Shown here in pieces: positions 3,992-18,895 of a stretch of 34,838 bases of DNA. Positions within the stretch are counted from its first letter, which is position 1. Each line of letters opens with the position of its first letter. The position numbers and the translations under genes are program-made. Origin of the DNA: a virus; IMG/VR virus record IMGVR_UViG_3300020119_000096, positions 1 to 34,838 of that record; one strand, written 5' to 3'. The notes under the pieces are model-generated. The model was given only the letters and a program-made list of their open reading frames with translations, made no database searches and was not told where the DNA came from.

Positions 3992-4203
3992 TCGCTCCTC
4001 GCTTGGGAATGTTCATCGCGTTGAATCGTCACGTTCTGGAGATACCACCGCATCGTCCACGCTCCACCCACCACACCTATGAATCCCCCGAGGAACCCGC
4101 CCATCATCCACGGGAGGAGACCGGGGGGACAGGAGAAGAGGCTCATCGGCAAATCCCCAAAGCGCGGTATGTCCTCATTCTGTCGCGGCTGCACGTACGA
4201 CAT
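3988..4203 (-). CDS. Single-pass membrane protein, 71 aa
   Basis: A 71-residue protein with one hydrophobic stretch at about residues 33-53 (PWMMGGFLGGFIGVVGG), glycine-rich like a small inner-membrane helix, and a charged C-terminus (QRDEHSQARSE). A good ribosome-binding site (GGAAGG) precedes the ATG at 4203, so this start is preferred over longer frames. The gene lies mostly downstream of, and overlaps by 61 bases, the HNH endonuclease gene, which suggests the HNH gene arrived later and ran into it. Function unknown. Confidence 0.65.
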   Translation of the reverse strand: MSYVQPRQNEDIPRFGDLPMSLFSCPPGLLPWMMGGFLGGFIGVVGGAWTMRWYLQNVTIQRDEHSQARSE

Positions 4204-4580
4204 GACCTTCCCCTCTCGGATATGTAGGTGTTGGCCCCATTGAACGGATGCCCGACCTTGCAGTGTGTCTTCCGGGCGTTCATGGCCGTGTGCCCTTCTA
4301 CACGCAGAAAATTGTCGCCACGGGTCACGGGTTCTAGATGGTCGGGATTGACACACCCTCGGTTGCGACACAAATGGTCAAGGGTCAGCCCATCGGGTAT
4401 TGGGCCTTTGGTGTGCTCATACATTCTTCGGTGGGCTCGTCTGGGGGCGCGGCTACCCCATAGCCCATATCCGTCCGGTGATTGAGCCCCCACCCACTCC
4501 CAACAGCCGTTCTCCTGAATGATGTAGCCGATGGGACGTGTGCTTTGTGCATCATTTAGTTGTACAAATACCCCAACCAT
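4143..4580 (-). CDS. HNH endonuclease (free-standing homing type), copy 1
   Basis: The 145-residue protein has an N-terminal GCWEWVG segment, the HNH core LTLDHLCRNRGCVNPDHLEP (D68-H69, N79, H81) and a C-terminal zinc-like NARKTHCKVGHPF...CRTC module. This is the HNH_3 architecture of phage-borne homing endonucleases, which nick or cut related genomes lacking the gene. It is one of four members of the same subfamily in this window. Its first residues (GVFVQLND) closely match those of copy 2 (GVFVQLNE). The 3' end overlaps the membrane-protein gene, and a 10-bp inverted repeat (4598-4607 / 4650-4659) lies just upstream of its start. Confidence 0.9.
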   Translation of the reverse strand: MVGVFVQLNDAQSTRPIGYIIQENGCWEWVGAQSPDGYGLWGSRAPRRAHRRMYEHTKGPIPDGLTLDHLCRNRGCVNPDHLEPVTRGDNFLRVEGHTAMNARKTHCKVGHPFNGANTYISERGRSCRTCSRDRMRTYRALGICR

Positions 4581-6897: not shown

Positions 6898-7184
6898 GGG
6901 GTGTCGCCTCCGAGCTGTGAGGTGAGCCAGTCACGGGTCGCCTCCCATGACTTCGTCTCGACCATCTTCTGCGCCACTTCCTCCAGCGTGGCCTGCCGGG
7001 TCGCGGCGTGCTGGGCGGCGCGGTTCTCAGGACGATCCGATGCGCGGCGTTCCAGTCCACGGTTGTCGAGGACGCGCTTCGAGCCCTTGCAGAGGTCGCA
7101 GACGGCCTCGTAGGTCCCGGCGTCTTCATCGAGGTGGCGCACGACATAGCCGCGTCCACCACAGTCACGGCACGGATAGCTCAT
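6894..7184 (-). CDS. DnaJ-type zinc-finger protein, 96 aa
   Basis: The N-terminus, MSYPCRDCGGRGYVV, followed by CDLCKGSKRV, forms a CxxCxGxG...CxxCxGs pair, one DnaJ-like zinc site. The rest is a helical arginine- and glutamate-rich segment. It is the second such module in the operon (compare 6272-6442). The start at 7184 overlaps the HNH stop by four bases. Confidence 0.65.
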   Translation of the reverse strand: MSYPCRDCGGRGYVVRHLDEDAGTYEAVCDLCKGSKRVLDNRGLERRASDRPENRAAQHAATRQATLEEVAQKMVETKSWEATRDWLTSQLGGDTP

Positions 7185-7657
7185 CGGGCACCTCGGGCGC
7201 GGAGGAAGGCGATGGCTCGCTCCCGCTCGCGGCAGCGTTGAGCGTGGGTCTTACGGCATGTCTTGCAGTATCGAATCCACCGACCTTCAGCCAGTCGAGT
7301 GCCATCTAGTGGATGTCCGTGTATACAAGAGTTTTTACGGGCGTTGCGGGCTGGCGGCCCGAATCCCCGAAGAACGTTGTCTTTGTTGCTCACGGGTTCG
7401 AGGTGATCCGGATTCACGCAAGCGCGATTCCGGCAGAGGTGGTCAAGGGTGAGACCGTCTGGGATTGGCCACTTGTGCTGCTCAAAGACGAAACGGTGGG
7501 CTCTGATGTTGTGCGTGCCATTCCAGATTCTTCCATAGCCATCCTTGCTGAGTGGCCCAACCCAATCCCAGCACCCATTTTCTTGCAGGACGTAGCCGAG
7601 AGGATACTTTCTCGCCATGTGCGACTTTTCGTTGAGCTGCACAAAAACACCCATCAT
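7181..7657 (-). CDS. HNH endonuclease (free-standing homing type), copy 2
   Basis: The 158-residue product has GCWDWVG, the HNH core LTLDHLCRNRACVNPDHLEP and the C-terminal NARKNSCIHGHP...CKTCRKTH module, the same layout as copies 1, 3 and 4. The opening GVFVQLNE is nearly identical to copy 1, pointing to duplication within this phage lineage. It begins with two adjacent ATG codons (7657 and 7654) overlapping the stop of the HTH gene, so it is transcribed with the early operon. Confidence 0.9.
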   Translation of the reverse strand: MMGVFVQLNEKSHMARKYPLGYVLQENGCWDWVGPLSKDGYGRIWNGTHNIRAHRFVFEQHKWPIPDGLTLDHLCRNRACVNPDHLEPVSNKDNVLRGFGPPARNARKNSCIHGHPLDGTRLAEGRWIRYCKTCRKTHAQRCRERERAIAFLRARGAR

Positions 7658-9375: not shown

Positions 9376-9552
9376 TTACTTCGGATCGTCCTGTGTGGCC
9401 AGAAAGGCCGAAAGAGCGAATGGGTCATTGTTGAGACGGTATTGTGTGCCCAGTGCTTCGCCTAATGGCATCGTGGGGCCTAGAACCTTGCCGTCTATGC
9501 AGACACGCGCCGCCTTCATTGACCGGATTACCACTGTCACGCGCTTGGTCAT
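9376..9552 (-). CDS. Small early protein, 58 aa
   Basis: A 58-residue frame from ATG 9552 (MTKRVTVVIRSMKAARVCID...) to TAA at 9376. The start overlaps the stop of the alanine-rich protein gene (ATGA at 9549-9552). The beta-strand-rich N-terminus and helical end look protein-like, but no family is recognised. Confidence 0.55.
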   Translation of the reverse strand: MTKRVTVVIRSMKAARVCIDGKVLGPTMPLGEALGTQYRLNNDPFALSAFLATQDDPK

Positions 9553-10232
9553 ACAGACTCCTCATTGCCGGTGAGGTAGAACCACAGGCGTTGCCCTTGC
9601 CACTCACGTTCCGCAGCCCCAGCCGCAGCCCGAACCGCAGCAGCCGCAGACCAAGCCGCAGCCCCAGCCGCAGCCCAAGCCGCAGCAGCCGCAGACCCAG
9701 CCGCAGCCCGAACCGCAGCAGCCGCAGACCAAGCCGCAGCCCCAGCCGCAGCCCAAGCCGCAGCCCCAGCCGCAGCCCCAGCCGCAGACCAAGCCGCAGC
9801 CCCAGCCGCATCGGAAAGTTGTCCACGGGCGAGCATCCGTGCCGCCTTGACCGCAGCGTGACTCCGAGGGTCCGCGTTGGGGATACGGGACAGGGCGCGT
9901 TCCGCGCAGTCGGCCGCGAATAGCCGAGCCACGCGGTCATTCCATACGAGCGGCCGGATTAACCGCGCTTCCCGCACGACCACCTTGTCGTCTGCGGCGA
10001 GGAGTTCGCCGCGATACTGGACGAGATAGGGGGCCGCGCCTTCGGCAATCCATTGGGGGGCATCGGACAGGCGGCACAGATGGAGCCCGTTCTCGCACGG
10101 GACTAGGGGGCCGGTCACAGAGAGGGATGCCCCGGGTCCGGTGGTGGGCGGCAGCGGCCACGTCCCTTTCCCACCGTGAGCAGGACGGCCATCAGGCAAG
10201 AGCCACTTGATATACGGCTGGGTGTCGGTCAT
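9549..10232 (-). CDS. GLHLC-domain protein with Ala/Trp-rich repeat tail
   Basis: A 227-residue protein in two parts. Residues 1-135 form a globular domain with the landmarks CENGLHLCRL, YLVQYRGELLAADDKVVVRE and ARLFAADCAERAL, a pattern I recall from phage and actinobacterial proteins (DUF7666-like). Residues about 140-210 are repeats of AAAWSAAG / AAAWAAAG type, ending REWQGQRLWFYLTG. In related proteins a similar alanine-tryptophan-arginine tail occurs, so it is unlikely to be an artefact. The tail is encoded by tandem DNA repeats (see the repeat entry) and should vary in length. Function unknown. ATG 10232 overlaps the upstream stop. Confidence 0.7.
   Translation of the reverse strand: MTDTQPYIKWLLPDGRPAHGGKGTWPLPPTTGPGASLSVTGPLVPCENGLHLCRLSDAPQWIAEGAAPYLVQYRGELLAADDKVVVREARLIRPLVWNDRVARLFAADCAERALSRIPNADPRSHAAVKAARMLARGQLSDAAGAAAWSAAGAAAGAAAWAAAGAAAWSAAAAVRAAAGSAAAAAWAAAGAAAWSAAAAVRAAAGAAEREWQGQRLWFYLTGNEESV
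9606..9815. repeat. Tandem CAG-CC(C/A/G)-rich repeat coding for Ala/Trp tail
   Basis: About 200 bases built from short units such as CAGCCCCAGCCGCAG. At a larger scale a 69-base perfect direct repeat occurs at 9618-9686 and again at 9696-9764, offset by 78 bases, which equals 26 codons of the minus-strand gene. The 26-codon period preserves the reading frame, so slippage would change only the tail length. It is not a CRISPR: there are no unique spacers. Confidence 0.85.
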
Positions 10233-10462
10233 TCGGATTCCTCTCCTTCGGCGTAAGCGGCGGCTAGCTCTCCTTGCGGATACTCCGGCCACCCACTCTG
10301 GGACCAGTCGGTCTTGCATTCGGGGCACCGGGAGGGATGGTCTGTGAGGCGGAGCCAATAGGGATGCTGGATAGTTCCGCCGTCCACTTGTGTCACCTTC
10401 ACCGGCAGGTCGGCGGCACACGACCCATCGCCGGGGCAGCGGATGAACGACTGGCGGGTCAC
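10229..10462 (-). CDS. Zinc-binding early protein, 77 aa
   Basis: A 77-residue protein with CPGDGSC near the N-terminus and CPECKTDW in the middle, spaced to form a zinc ribbon, with WLRLTDHPSR between. The C-terminus is acidic (YAEGEESE). It is linked to both neighbours by four-base overlaps. Function unknown. Confidence 0.6.
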   Translation of the reverse strand: MTRQSFIRCPGDGSCAADLPVKVTQVDGGTIQHPYWLRLTDHPSRCPECKTDWSQSGWPEYPQGELAAAYAEGEESE

Positions 10463-10890: not shown

Positions 10891-11115
10891 ATGGCCAATG
10901 AACCGACTGCCTACGAAAAACGTCTCGCAGAGCTAGTTGCCGAGGGGTTGAAGGACCAAGCCATCGCCGATGAACTGCGCGGCAAATACCCCACCATCAC
11001 CCCACGGGCGGTGCGGGACCACATCGACCGCCTACGCCAGAAGCTTCCCGGCAATCTTCCCGCAAGGGCGAGAATTTCGGTCTGGGTGGCGGATCAACGG
11101 AGGGGAAACCCATGA
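10891..11115 (+). CDS. LuxR/GerE-type HTH regulator, 74 aa
   Basis: A 74-residue protein, nearly all of it one LuxR-type helix-turn-helix: EKRLAELVAEGLKDQAIADE, LRGKYPTITPRAVRDHIDRLRQKL. The order GL-(x)-IA-L and T-RAVR-HI is diagnostic of the GerE/LuxR C-terminal DNA-binding domain. It has no receiver or ligand domain, so it probably binds DNA constitutively as a dimer. It heads the rightward operon next to the divergent control region, where a regulator would be expected to act. Confidence 0.75.
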   Translation: MANEPTAYEKRLAELVAEGLKDQAIADELRGKYPTITPRAVRDHIDRLRQKLPGNLPARARISVWVADQRRGNP

Positions 11116-11591
11116 TTGCGGATGGCGGGAAAGAACAAGCGATGAGCGAGCAGTATTACCACCGCCCGGATATATCGTGGCTTCGGCCTCTCACTAAGGG
11201 CGGGGAGCGGCGTCCATCGTTTGTTGAAAGTGTTACCGGGTGTTGGATTTGGCAGGGGCACGTCAACAACGGGGGCTATCCGCAAACCAAGATAGGGCGG
11301 AAGTCACATCGCGCCCACCGCGTCTTTTACGAGCATTTCGTGGGGGCCATTCCCGAGGGGATGACTCTTGACCATCTCTGCGGCAACCGCAAATGCGTCA
11401 ATCCGGCGCACCTAGAACCCACCACCATTCGGGATAATACGATGCGGTCAAATTCTATCAGTGCAATCAACGCACGGAAGACGCATTGCATCTGGGGCCA
11501 TTCCGATTGGGTGGCGCGGGAAGCGCCCTATGAGAATCAGCGGCGTTGTAGGGCTTGTCGTGCCGCCAAGCGCGTGGTGGAGGCGAAATGA
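11112..11591 (+). CDS. HNH endonuclease (free-standing homing type), copy 3
   Basis: A 159-residue protein with GCWIWQG, the HNH core MTLDHLCGNRKCVNPAHLEP, and NARKTHCIWGH...CRACRAAKR at the C-terminus, the same subfamily as copies 1, 2 and 4 but on the plus strand. The ATG at 11112 overlaps the regulator's stop (ATGA); a second start 10 codons later (MSEQYYHRP) is possible. It probably spreads by copying itself into genomes lacking it. Confidence 0.9.
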   Translation: MIADGGKEQAMSEQYYHRPDISWLRPLTKGGERRPSFVESVTGCWIWQGHVNNGGYPQTKIGRKSHRAHRVFYEHFVGAIPEGMTLDHLCGNRKCVNPAHLEPTTIRDNTMRSNSISAINARKTHCIWGHSDWVAREAPYENQRRCRACRAAKRVVEAK

Positions 11592-12856: not shown

Positions 12857-13101
12857 GGGGCACCGATCCGAGCGAGGAGGGCGCGGATTGCGCCCACGCT
12901 CTTGCCGTCGATGTAGACGGTGTCATTGGAGCGGCCCACCGCATTGCCGGACACGGCGCGAAGCAGCTCCAGCATCTCCGGCGCGGCGGCGATCAGGCGG
13001 GCGGTGTAATCATCCCTTGCGCTCGTTGCAGAAGCGGCAACAGAGGCAGAGGTTAGCGGCTGTGTGCTGGCCGCCATTGGCACGGGAAACGATGTGGTCA
13101 T
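12853..13101 (-). CDS. LIAAAPE-motif protein with displaced N-terminus
   Basis: The C-terminal part (YTARLIAAAPEMLELLRAVS, then VYIDGKSVGAIRALLARIG) carries the widespread phage motif ANARLIAAAPELLEAL. In relatives this is preceded by a longer N-terminal region. Here the frame continues upstream only as 3'-end sequence of the HNH gene (starts at 13101 or 13077 would give 82 or 74 residues, with a serine/alanine-rich lead). I suspect the original N-terminus was lost when the HNH gene inserted, so the gene may be a remnant still read from an internal start. Confidence 0.4.
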   Translation of the reverse strand: MTTSFPVPMAASTQPLTSASVAASATSARDDYTARLIAAAPEMLELLRAVSGNAVGRSNDTVYIDGKSVGAIRALLARIGAP

Positions 13102-13462
13102 ATCCCACCGGGTGTGTTGGGGTGAAGCGGGGCCTTACGGTTGCGCCACAGTAAACGCACACCTTGTCCCGCTCGTAAATCGCTATCAGGTCAGCTCTTG
13201 TAACGTCTCCAGCGAGGAGCCATGCGAGGCGCTTTTGATACTGGGCGGCGTCCACTTCTGGCTTGCGCCGTCTGCGCCGATTGGCGCGGTATTGCTCTCG
13301 CCGTTCTTTGCGGGCGCGATGTTCGCCGCGCCGTTTCTGCTCTAGGTACTTCTCGGGGTTTGCCTTGCGCCACGCCTTGACGGCGAGGCGGGCGCAATTG
13401 AGGCATCGGGGCCGGGAGAGCATTTCGCCGCTCCATCCACAGCTAAGGCAGGTGTAGGTCAT
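13010..13462 (-). CDS. HNH endonuclease with N-terminal zinc finger (different subfamily)
   Basis: The 150-residue protein has an N-terminal CLSCGWSGEMLSRPRCLNC zinc module, a basic arginine-rich middle (residues about 45-80) and a classic HNH core: KVCVYCGAT, VGYDHIVSRANGGQH, TAANLCLCCRFCNERKG. The McrA-like CxxC pairs and DHI/NL...CxxCN order differ from the other four endonucleases here. ATG 13462 directly follows a candidate promoter (13468-13496) and the left junction of the captured host DNA. The 3' end overlaps the LIAAAPE-motif gene by 92 bases. Confidence 0.9.
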   Translation of the reverse strand: MTYTCLSCGWSGEMLSRPRCLNCARLAVKAWRKANPEKYLEQKRRGEHRARKERREQYRANRRRRRKPEVDAAQYQKRLAWLLAGDVTRADLIAIYERDKVCVYCGATVRPRFTPTHPVGYDHIVSRANGGQHTAANLCLCCRFCNERKG

Positions 13463-13506: not shown

Positions 13507-13677
13507 ATGGGTGGTCATGTTCACGGTCGGGACATCGCGGCGGGGATCGTGCTGGTGCGGGAGGCGGGAGGGGTCGTGACCGACCTCGCGGGGAGGACGA
13601 TCGGGGCCGAGCACACCGGGGTGGTGGCGGGGAGCCCGCAGATGCATGAGTGGCTCCTTCGTCAGCTGCACGATTAA
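13507..13677 (+). pseudogene. 3' fragment of inositol monophosphatase gene (suhB-like)
   Basis: From about 13531 the plus strand encodes RDIAAGIVLVREAGGVVTD, LAGRTIGAEHTGVVAGSPQM and a short helix ending at TAA 13675-13677. This is the C-terminal end of inositol-1-monophosphatase family enzymes: (W)DIAAG...EAGG is the motif contributing a metal-binding aspartate, and VAG(S/N)P precedes the last helix. The rest of the enzyme (about 200 residues) is missing; the frame opens at ATG 13507 with a non-homologous lead, and the usual W before DIAAG is R. Nearly all codons end in G or C. It is a truncated bacterial gene, best read as one end of a captured chromosomal segment. Confidence 0.8.
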
Positions 13678-13722
13678 CCGCCGGCGGGTCGGGAGTTGGG
13701 AGTCGGGAGGGATGAAATGATG

Positions 13723-13750
13723 AGAGCCGTCCGATCGTGGACGGCTCTTT
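13723..13750. terminator. Hairpin terminator between suhB fragment and map
   Basis: AGAGCCGTCC (13723-13732) and GGACGGCTCT (13739-13748) form a perfect 10-bp stem with a six-base loop, followed by TTT on the plus strand. It lies exactly between the convergent ends of the suhB fragment and map, as expected for a bidirectional bacterial terminator. It is enclosed by a second perfect inverted repeat, GGAGTCGGGAG (13699-13709) and CTCCCGACTCC (13769-13779). Confidence 0.8.
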
Positions 13751-13786
13751 GCCTTGCACCCCTCCTGGCTCCCGACTCCGGACCAC

Positions 13787-14536
13787 CTACGCCGTCGTCA
13801 GGATCACCGGCCCATTCTCCGTGACCGCCACCGTGTGCTCGAAGTGCGCCGAGAGGGAGCCGTCCATCGTGACGACGGTCCACTTGTCGTCGAGGGTGCG
13901 AGTGGCGGGGTCGCCGGCGGTGATCATCGGCTCGATGGCGATGGTCATCCCGACCTTGAGGAGGGGGCCCCGCTTGGGGCGGCCGTAGTTGGGGACCTGC
14001 GGCTCCTCGTGGAAGGTGCGGCCGATCCCGTGCCCCACGAGCTCCCGCACCACCCCGAACCCGGCCCCTTCGGCGACGTTCTGCACCGCGTGGCCGATGT
14101 CGCCGACGTGGTTCCCGGCGCGCGCCTCCTTGATCCCGGTATAGAGCGACTCCTCGGTGACCGTGAGGAGGCGCTGGGCTTCGGGGGAGACCTCGCCCAC
14201 GGCGTAGGTGTAGGCGGAGTCGGCGTGGAGCCCGTCGACCTGGACCCCGACGTCAGCGGTGAAGAGGCTCCCCTCGCCGAGGACCCGCTTCTTGGAGGGG
14301 ATCCCGTGGACGATCTCCTCGTTGATCGAGGTGCAGAGGGTCGCGGGGAAGCCGTAGAGCCCCTTGAACGACGGGATCCCCCCCTGGCCGCGGATGTACT
14401 CCTCGGCGAGGCGGTCGAGCTCCCAGGTCGAGATCCCGGGGCGCACGTGGCGCTTGAGGTCCTGGAGCACGCCGAAGACGATGCGGCCGGCGGCGCGCAT
14501 CGTGTCGAGTTCGGAGCGGGACTTGAGGGTGACCAC
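13787..14536 (-). CDS. map: Type I methionine aminopeptidase
   Basis: A complete 249-residue enzyme that removes the initiator methionine from new proteins. All expected residues are visible and keep the E. coli spacing (offset by two): H77 in NEEIVHGIP, metal ligands D95 (ADVGV), D106 (HADSA), H169 (VGHGIGRTFHEEP), E202 (IAIEPM) and E233 (HFEHTVAV), plus H176. It should be active. The GTG at 14536 gives the usual family length (about 250); frames reaching 14749 are an out-of-frame reading of the upstream chimeric ORF. It starts five bases after the adk-like fragment stops, the normal adk-map order of bacterial spc operons. In the first 55 codons only one does not end in G or C, unlike phage genes, so recent transfer from a bacterium is likely. 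Confidence 0.95.
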   Translation of the reverse strand: MVTLKSRSELDTMRAAGRIVFGVLQDLKRHVRPGISTWELDRLAEEYIRGQGGIPSFKGLYGFPATLCTSINEEIVHGIPSKKRVLGEGSLFTADVGVQVDGLHADSAYTYAVGEVSPEAQRLLTVTEESLYTGIKEARAGNHVGDIGHAVQNVAEGAGFGVVRELVGHGIGRTFHEEPQVPNYGRPKRGPLLKVGMTIAIEPMITAGDPATRTLDDKWTVVTMDGSLSAHFEHTVAVTENGPVILTTA

Positions 14537-14541
14537 CGTCG

Positions 14542-14712
14542 TTACCGGCCGAGGATCTTCCGCACCCGCGCGCTCACCTCGTCCACCGTGCCGACGGCGT
14601 CGACGGTGTGGACGGTGCCGCCGAACTCCCGCACCATCCGGCCGCCGATATAACCCTTCCAGTTGCCCCAGATGTTTTGCTTGACGGTCACCTTCGGTTC
14701 CTTGCGGGCCAT
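14542..14712 (-). CDS. Chimeric ORF: phage N-terminus fused to adenylate kinase C-terminus
   Basis: A 56-residue frame from ATG 14712 (with GAGGATG-type upstream sequence) to TAA 14542-14544. Residues 1-32 (MARKEPKVTVKQNIWGNWKG, YIGGRMVREFGG) use mixed codons like other phage genes and look like a small phage protein. Residues 33-56 (VHTVDAVGTVDEVSARVRKI, LGR) look like the last helix of bacterial adenylate kinase (VDG..-(x)-EV...I...L), and every one of these codons ends in G or C. The switch at about 14612-14620 probably marks the right end of the captured segment. The hybrid cannot be an active kinase, but it may couple translation to map. Confidence 0.65.
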   Translation of the reverse strand: MARKEPKVTVKQNIWGNWKGYIGGRMVREFGGTVHTVDAVGTVDEVSARVRKILGR

Positions 14713-15131: not shown

Positions 15132-15725
15132 ATGGCATCCCAGCCCATCAAACGCCAGATGATTACCCAGCTCGCCTCTCTGGCTAACCCTGACTCCCTC
15201 AATCTCCCTCCCGATACCACCGAAGACGATGCCGCCTTCGCCTACCTCCTCGCCTACATGGAGAACGGCGGTCGGTTGTCCCGCCTCGCCTCAGACCTCA
15301 ACGTGTCCCGCTTCCTGTTGGATCGCTGGGTGAAGGGAACGCCCGAGCGAGCTTCCCAGTTCTCCCGTGCGCGTGCGCGTGGGGCGGACGCGTTGGTAGA
15401 TGAGGGGGGCGACTTGTTGGACCGGGCGACGCGGGATGATGTGGCCGTAGCCAATGCCCGGGCGGGATGGCGGAAGTGGCTGGCGGGGAAGGTGAACCCC
15501 GAGGAGTGGGGGGAGAGCAAGCAGGGGGCGCCCCTCATCGGTAGCCTGCACCTGCATGCCGCGCTGTCCCGTCCCCAGCTGCAGGGAGCCGATAATTCCC
15601 CGAAGCCCCCCCTTCTGGGTCCTCCACTCGGGCAGCGGGAGGCCGGGTACCTAACAGAGAGTGAGATAGTGGGGGAGCCCGAGTTTCACGTGGAACACCC
15701 CCCTACCCCTGTCGATGGGGAATGA
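15132..15725 (+). CDS. Terminase small subunit (TerS), Sf6-like
   Basis: A 197-residue protein that recognises phage DNA for packaging. After an acidic lead it has a helix-turn-helix segment (SRLASDLNVSRFLLDRWVKG) followed by QFSRARARGADALVDEGGDL and then NARAGWRKWLAGKVNPEEWG, the helical order typical of Sf6-type small terminase subunits (DNA-binding N-terminus, oligomerisation middle). The proline-rich C-terminal 60 residues probably contact TerL. It is separated from TerL by four small genes. No strong ribosome-binding site precedes the ATG. Confidence 0.8.
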   Translation: MASQPIKRQMITQLASLANPDSLNLPPDTTEDDAAFAYLLAYMENGGRLSRLASDLNVSRFLLDRWVKGTPERASQFSRARARGADALVDEGGDLLDRATRDDVAVANARAGWRKWLAGKVNPEEWGESKQGAPLIGSLHLHAALSRPQLQGADNSPKPPLLGPPLGQREAGYLTESEIVGEPEFHVEHPPTPVDGE

Positions 15726-18389: not shown

Positions 18390-18869
18390 TCACGAATAAG
18401 GGCGATAACGTTCTCTATTGCTGGTACGACGACAGGCACGGCAGAAGCGGCCCCCCTTCGGAGAACGGTAGGTATTCTCTTCGCTAAACTTGTGTCCTCT
18501 CGGGCAATGCGTTTTACGGGCATTGACGCCAGAGAATCCATTTCCTCGCAGCGCATTCTCCCGTTGAGTCACTGGCTGCATATGATAGGGATTGACACAC
18601 CCCCGATTGCGACAGAGATGGTCGAGCTGAAGCCCCGGTGGGATTGGGCCAATAGCTCGCTCGTATACAACTCGATGGGCCATTCGCAATTTACCGTCGA
18701 TGAAAGAATGCCCATAACCATCTGGGGTGAGCCGACCGGTCCATTGCCAGCACCCATTCGGGAGAATCCGATACCCGACCGAATTGCTACGAACCTTTCC
18801 TAGCAATGAGAGCACCGGGACAAACAAGGGCTTTTCCATTAGGACCGTAGGATAGAGGTCCATAAACAT
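18390..18869 (-). CDS. HNH endonuclease (free-standing homing type), copy 4, antisense
   Basis: A 159-residue protein with GCWQWTG, the HNH core LQLDHLCRNRGCVNPYHMQP and the C-terminal NARKTHCPRGHKF...CRACRRTS module, the same subfamily as copies 1-3. It is on the minus strand inside the plus-strand late operon, so it must use its own transcript. The start is uncertain: ATG 18869 has GGGATAG upstream; ATGs at 18863 and 18839 and a TTG at 18893 are alternatives. The nearby divergent promoter region (18896-18988) may serve both directions. Confidence 0.85.
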   Translation of the reverse strand: MFMDLYPTVLMEKPLFVPVLSLLGKVRSNSVGYRILPNGCWQWTGRLTPDGYGHSFIDGKLRMAHRVVYERAIGPIPPGLQLDHLCRNRGCVNPYHMQPVTQRENALRGNGFSGVNARKTHCPRGHKFSEENTYRSPKGGRFCRACRRTSNRERYRPYS

Positions 18870-18895
18870 ACTATCCCACGACATAAATAGCAAGC

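Follow-up and report, generated by a model that had tools for sequence, protein, structure and literature searches.

Probable recent capture of a suhB–map–adk fragment of bacterial chromosome by a podovirus-like phage

Bacterial genes within a phage genome

The window analyzed here is the whole 34.8-kb stretch (34,838 nucleotides) of the IMG/VR record IMGVR_UViG_3300020119_000096, a metagenome-derived virus record from an environmental sample. Within it, a block of ~1.1 kb (~13529–14630) represents a contiguous piece of bacterial chromosome that comprises the 3′ end of suhB, the whole of map, and the tail of adk (Table 1). A previous reading of the window, based on the sequence only, described the three genes as lying side by side in a phage and the two outer ones as truncated at their 5′ ends. 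Both descriptions hold: all three gene pieces were confirmed by Pfam or homology, and suhB and adk both lack their 5′ parts. The C-terminus encoded by suhB′, a member of the inositol monophosphatase family, aligns with positions 216–267 of the 271 positions of the Inositol_P profile (Pfam; E 2.8e-10) and is 78% identical to the suhB of locus L156. The adk′ frame (14616–14542) matches the C-termini of adk genes located directly upstream of map in Gemmatimonadota loci (up to ~60% identity). The product of map matches Peptidase_M24 (Pfam; E 3.3e-50) as well as solved methionine aminopeptidases, with E-values down to 5e-71. The six metal-site residues (H78, D96, D107, H170, E203, and E234) are all present, each in an invariant column, and the protein is predicted to be a type I methionine aminopeptidase with an intact dinuclear metal site and catalytic His.

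Table 1 Coordinates of the block, its intergenic element, and the adjoining phage genes in the window
Feature	Position	Strand	Details
HNH endonuclease gene of the leftward unit, adjoining the left junction	13010..13462	-	Pfam HNH, E 9e-8; PHROG HNH families
suhB′, 3′-terminal 48 codons (inositol monophosphatase family), 5′ part absent	13529..13677	+	Stop TAA 13675-13677
Intergenic inverted repeat with central terminator-like hairpin (about 13723-13748)	13687..13784		46-nt arms, 78% complementary; fold −76.1 kcal/mol (+)
map, complete gene for a predicted type I methionine aminopeptidase	13787..14536	-	GTG start 14536-14534; stop TAG 13789-13787
adk′, last ~24 codons of adenylate kinase, 5′ part absent	14542..14616	-	Stop TAA 14544-14542
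Small phage gene, N-terminal part (MARKEPKVTVKQNIWGNWKGYIGGRMVREFG)	14617..14712	-	In frame with adk′; edge uncertain, 14617-14637
Small terminase subunit, beyond the block	15132..15725	+	Pfam Sf6_terminase, E 2.6e-11; phrog_1482

The intergenic region between suhB′ and map, in which a bidirectional terminator had been proposed, contains a hairpin with a 10-bp stem and a 6-nt loop, nested inside a 46-nt imperfect inverted repeat (13687–13732 and 13739–13784) whose arms are 78% complementary. The 109-nt region folds at −76.1 kcal/mol (z = −9.0) on the plus strand and at −67 kcal/mol (z = −6.95) on the minus strand. The T runs following the hairpin are weak on both strands, and a terminator scan of the sequence did not list it. 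The repeat resembles the inverted pairs of ~7-base tandem repeats (e.g., GAGGACT) that occur between Gemmatimonadota genes, for instance, at two sites of locus L137 (1405–1445 and 2835–2906) and downstream of map in locus L003. A rough count of such arrays, in which some of the cases are short and possibly due to chance, stands at 10 Gemmatimonadota loci (384 kb) versus 3 phage loci (712 kb), and the suhB–map repeat might be a phylum-specific intergenic element of Gemmatimonadota.

On both sides, the block is flanked by phage genes. The right arm, from ~15.1 kb onward, carries a rightward late module encoding the small and large terminase subunits, an SU10-type portal, a scaffold, an SU10-type capsid protein, other virion proteins, an endolysin, and a tail spike. 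The left arm (<13.5 kb) consists mostly of leftward genes, including those for HNH proteins, a primosomal protein, a DnaB-like helicase, and a resolvase-like protein. By its portal and major capsid proteins (SU10_portal, E 7.7e-133; SU10_MCP, E 3.1e-73; Pfam), the carrier of the block is a podovirus-like phage, a relative of those with SU10-type portal and capsid. Searches of a viral collection with TerL or the capsid protein yielded no close relative (best capsid identity ~51%), and a scan of the main ORFs in this possibly incomplete contig revealed neither an integrase nor a transposase. The window as a whole has no Rfam match and no tRNA.

Several further features of the phage arms deserve mention. 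Four similar, free-standing HNH endonuclease genes (4143–4580, 7181–7657, 11112–11591, and 18390–18893) are spread across both arms; their GC content at third codon positions (GC3), 0.53–0.64, is below that of most other phage genes, and the two that were tested both fall into phrog_826. The leftward ORF 9549–10421 contains 17 copies of a tandem 12-base repeat, CCGCAGCCCCAG (9611–9810), and its product is an Ala/Gly/Trp-rich repeat protein. Finally, a leftward ORF truncated at the window start (3–326) strongly matches phrog_24928, a family of unknown function (E 9.9e-41).

Edges and provenance of the block

The block and the surrounding phage differ markedly in composition. The contrast in codon use reported in the sequence-only reading, with block codons ending mostly in G or C and flanking phage genes using mixed third positions, was reproduced quantitatively: 311 of the 323 block codons (96%) end in G or C, as opposed to ~75–76% in phage genes (P = 8e-24 against a GC3 of ~0.76). 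By piece, GC3 amounts to 0.90 in suhB′, 0.97 in map, and 1.00 in adk′, compared with 0.74 in TerL and 0.70–0.85 in most phage genes. Tetranucleotide frequencies of the phage segments on either side of the block correlate with each other at 0.48–0.69, whereas the block correlates with the phage at 0.13–0.25 and with Gemmatimonadota loci at 0.27–0.36. The signature of such a short piece is noisy, reaching 0.43 with one distant phage relative, and codon use and synteny accordingly weigh more. Since the arms share a signature that the block lacks, the block sits inside one phage; derivation of the two arms from different phages is disfavored by the same common signature.

The sequence-only reading had placed the edges of the block at 13527 and 14615. 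Both positions needed small corrections. On the left, the codon preceding the Asp of the DIAAG motif is TGG (Trp) in all 41 distinct suhB genes and CGG in the window, and nothing upstream of this CGG resembles suhB. The changed codon together with the loss of homology indicates that host sequence starts at 13529–13531, which places the junction (13528/13529–13531) within 1–3 bases; the sequence common to phage and host at this edge is a few bases at most. On the right, a previously missed small phage gene starts at 14712 and runs leftward, and the junction falls within it, somewhere from about 14617 to 14637. The first 31 residues encoded by this gene resemble small proteins of several phages. 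Among them, Burkholderia phage BcepSaruman encodes a hypothetical protein that is 57% identical over residues 4–31, a match that is weak by itself (E 0.03); a pattern scan for the small gene gave no match. Together with adk′, this gene forms a fused ORF of 56 aa (14712–14542), although an in-frame join is expected by chance in one case out of three. The residues REFGG are attributable to either side, so that the right edge is defined as an interval rather than to the base, and a short shared stretch at this join is possible. The frame in which the small gene would be read across the excised block likewise depends on the exact edge chosen.

The gene order points to a specific bacterial source. 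In about ten Gemmatimonadota loci, suhB is convergent with map and lies 6–148 nt behind it, the corresponding distance in the window being ~109 nt. Some of these loci include adk (e.g., L013, L031, L033, L035, and L038) and additional ones represent the map–suhB part (L028, L032, L042, L048, and L077). In most of the convergent loci, adk is located directly upstream of map, in the same order as in the block, so that the arrangement for which a genome search had been suggested does exist in this phylum; in the remaining Gemmatimonadota loci, suhB is more distant, and the layout is thus variable within the phylum. In the set of proteins fetched, the identity of Map to its homologs reaches 74% for Gemmatimonadota, compared with 53–59% for other phyla. 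No near-identical donor was found in 395 Gemmatimonadota genomes and 288 genomes of the order of the closest genome, where the best matches reached 78% DNA identity and 74% protein identity. Among the 92 Map proteins of a phylogenetic tree, the window copy has a long branch (0.41, versus a median of 0.12). Without constraints, it falls next to the outgroup phyla, but weakly so (81/90); a constrained tree that places it within the main group of Gemmatimonadota is not rejected (p-AU 0.48), the placement of this long branch being weak. The block apparently comes from an unsampled relative of Gemmatimonadota, and an unsampled member or close relative of this phylum is the most likely host of the phage. 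A relative of the portal protein was detected in just one of the 395 Gemmatimonadota genomes (31% identity), and it is therefore the block that points to a Gemmatimonadota host.

Proposed capture of host DNA and alternative explanations

We consider it likely that the phage recently captured ~1.1 kb of host chromosome by illegitimate recombination. This explanation, already offered by the sequence-only reading, is consistent with the codon use and tetranucleotide signature of the block and with the way homology is lost at its two edges. The block replaces or interrupts the start of a leftward unit, between the small gene and the HNH gene starting at 13462. The capture would be recent, given that the tails of suhB and adk, although useless, are still intact and that the codons retain host-type third positions. 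Mechanistically, a double-strand break could have occurred near the start of the leftward unit, either made by a phage HNH nuclease, with the HNH gene at the left edge as the candidate break-maker, or arising during host DNA breakdown; repair through end joining or strand switching, relying on very short stretches of shared sequence, would then have used a host fragment as filler.

The main alternative is a chimeric contig: phage and bacterial DNA would have been joined by the assembler or through chimeric amplification, and the block would be absent from the phage itself. The metagenomic derivation of the record would be compatible with such an artifact, as would the failure of a sequence search to find a second virus record with the block. 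However, such an artifact would require two independent false joins, at host points separated by 1.1 kb and at the same spot of the phage, and the flanks share one phage signature and fit a single leftward gene unit interrupted by the block. Furthermore, the overlap of a few bases at the left edge is far below the assembler word, and graph errors alone would therefore not create the join. Overall, we regard a chimera as unlikely. Imprecise excision of a prophage, which would make this a specialized transducing phage with an attachment site at one edge of the block, could account for the phage–host–phage layout, which has the look of a circularized transducing genome. Yet coding sequence is cut at both edges, no direct repeat of at least 7 bases is present between the two junction zones, and an integrase is missing from the ORFs scanned; we give this explanation very little credence.

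A different question is whether map was retained for its function. Removal of the initiator methionine from phage proteins could be useful to the phage, with the flanks of map hitchhiking. Indeed, map is the sole complete gene in the block, encodes all catalytic residues, and follows the direction of leftward transcription, and a type I map is found among the phage genes of Vibrio phage V6Aob. Nevertheless, a random 1.1-kb piece often includes one whole short gene, and the block, devoid of phage-like codon use, is too young to show selection and carries, besides map, a strong hairpin and the useless tails of two genes. Selected cargo is thus improbable; the block is probably neutral cargo so far, which is the simplest view of a map gene in this phage. 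Being co-directional with leftward phage transcription and starting five bases past the stop of the fused ORF, map is in a position where expression is possible, and it may be expressed from the phage leftward unit; the hairpin that follows might impede phage genes farther downstream. A more far-reaching account, in which the phage is virulent, infects an unsampled Gemmatimonadota lineage, freshly took up housekeeping DNA beside its HNH gene through break repair with host filler, and may express map, is proposed tentatively.

Relation to known phage–host exchanges

Specialized transducing phages of the lambda gal or bio type carry a stretch of host chromosome, with the genes at its edges cut, in a phage genome. 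The window shares both features with them, but here neither an integrase nor an attachment site was seen, and the block is internal to the phage map instead of adjoining an integration site. Virulent phages also recombine, in part non-homologously, with host-resident DNA, as in the case of lactococcal phages and prophages (reviewed in PMC3231927). There, too, a virulent phage gains host-resident DNA by recombination; the donor, however, is prophage DNA under selection, in contrast to the ordinary housekeeping chromosome seen here. We found few papers on the capture of host chromosome by virulent phages. Vibrio phage V6Aob resembles the present phage in having a type I map, but its gene is just 35% identical and lacks accompanying adk or suhB pieces. 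No other virus record with the Map of the window was recovered by sequence search. A profile search returned nine virus records (L168–L176) encoding distant Map proteins (31–50% identity), which may be either phage genes or bacterial contamination. Uptake of host DNA by phages is already known as a kind of event, and the present case is a new and well-delimited one.

If the joins are real, the window contains a fresh phage–host hybrid with both edges still readable, in a phage for which no integrase was found. Such captures provide the starting material for host-derived phage genes but are usually observed only long after their useless flanks have disappeared. In that case, the block would also indicate which bacteria are the likely hosts of this phage lineage, namely Gemmatimonadota or a near relative; the lineage has no close relative in the viral collection searched.
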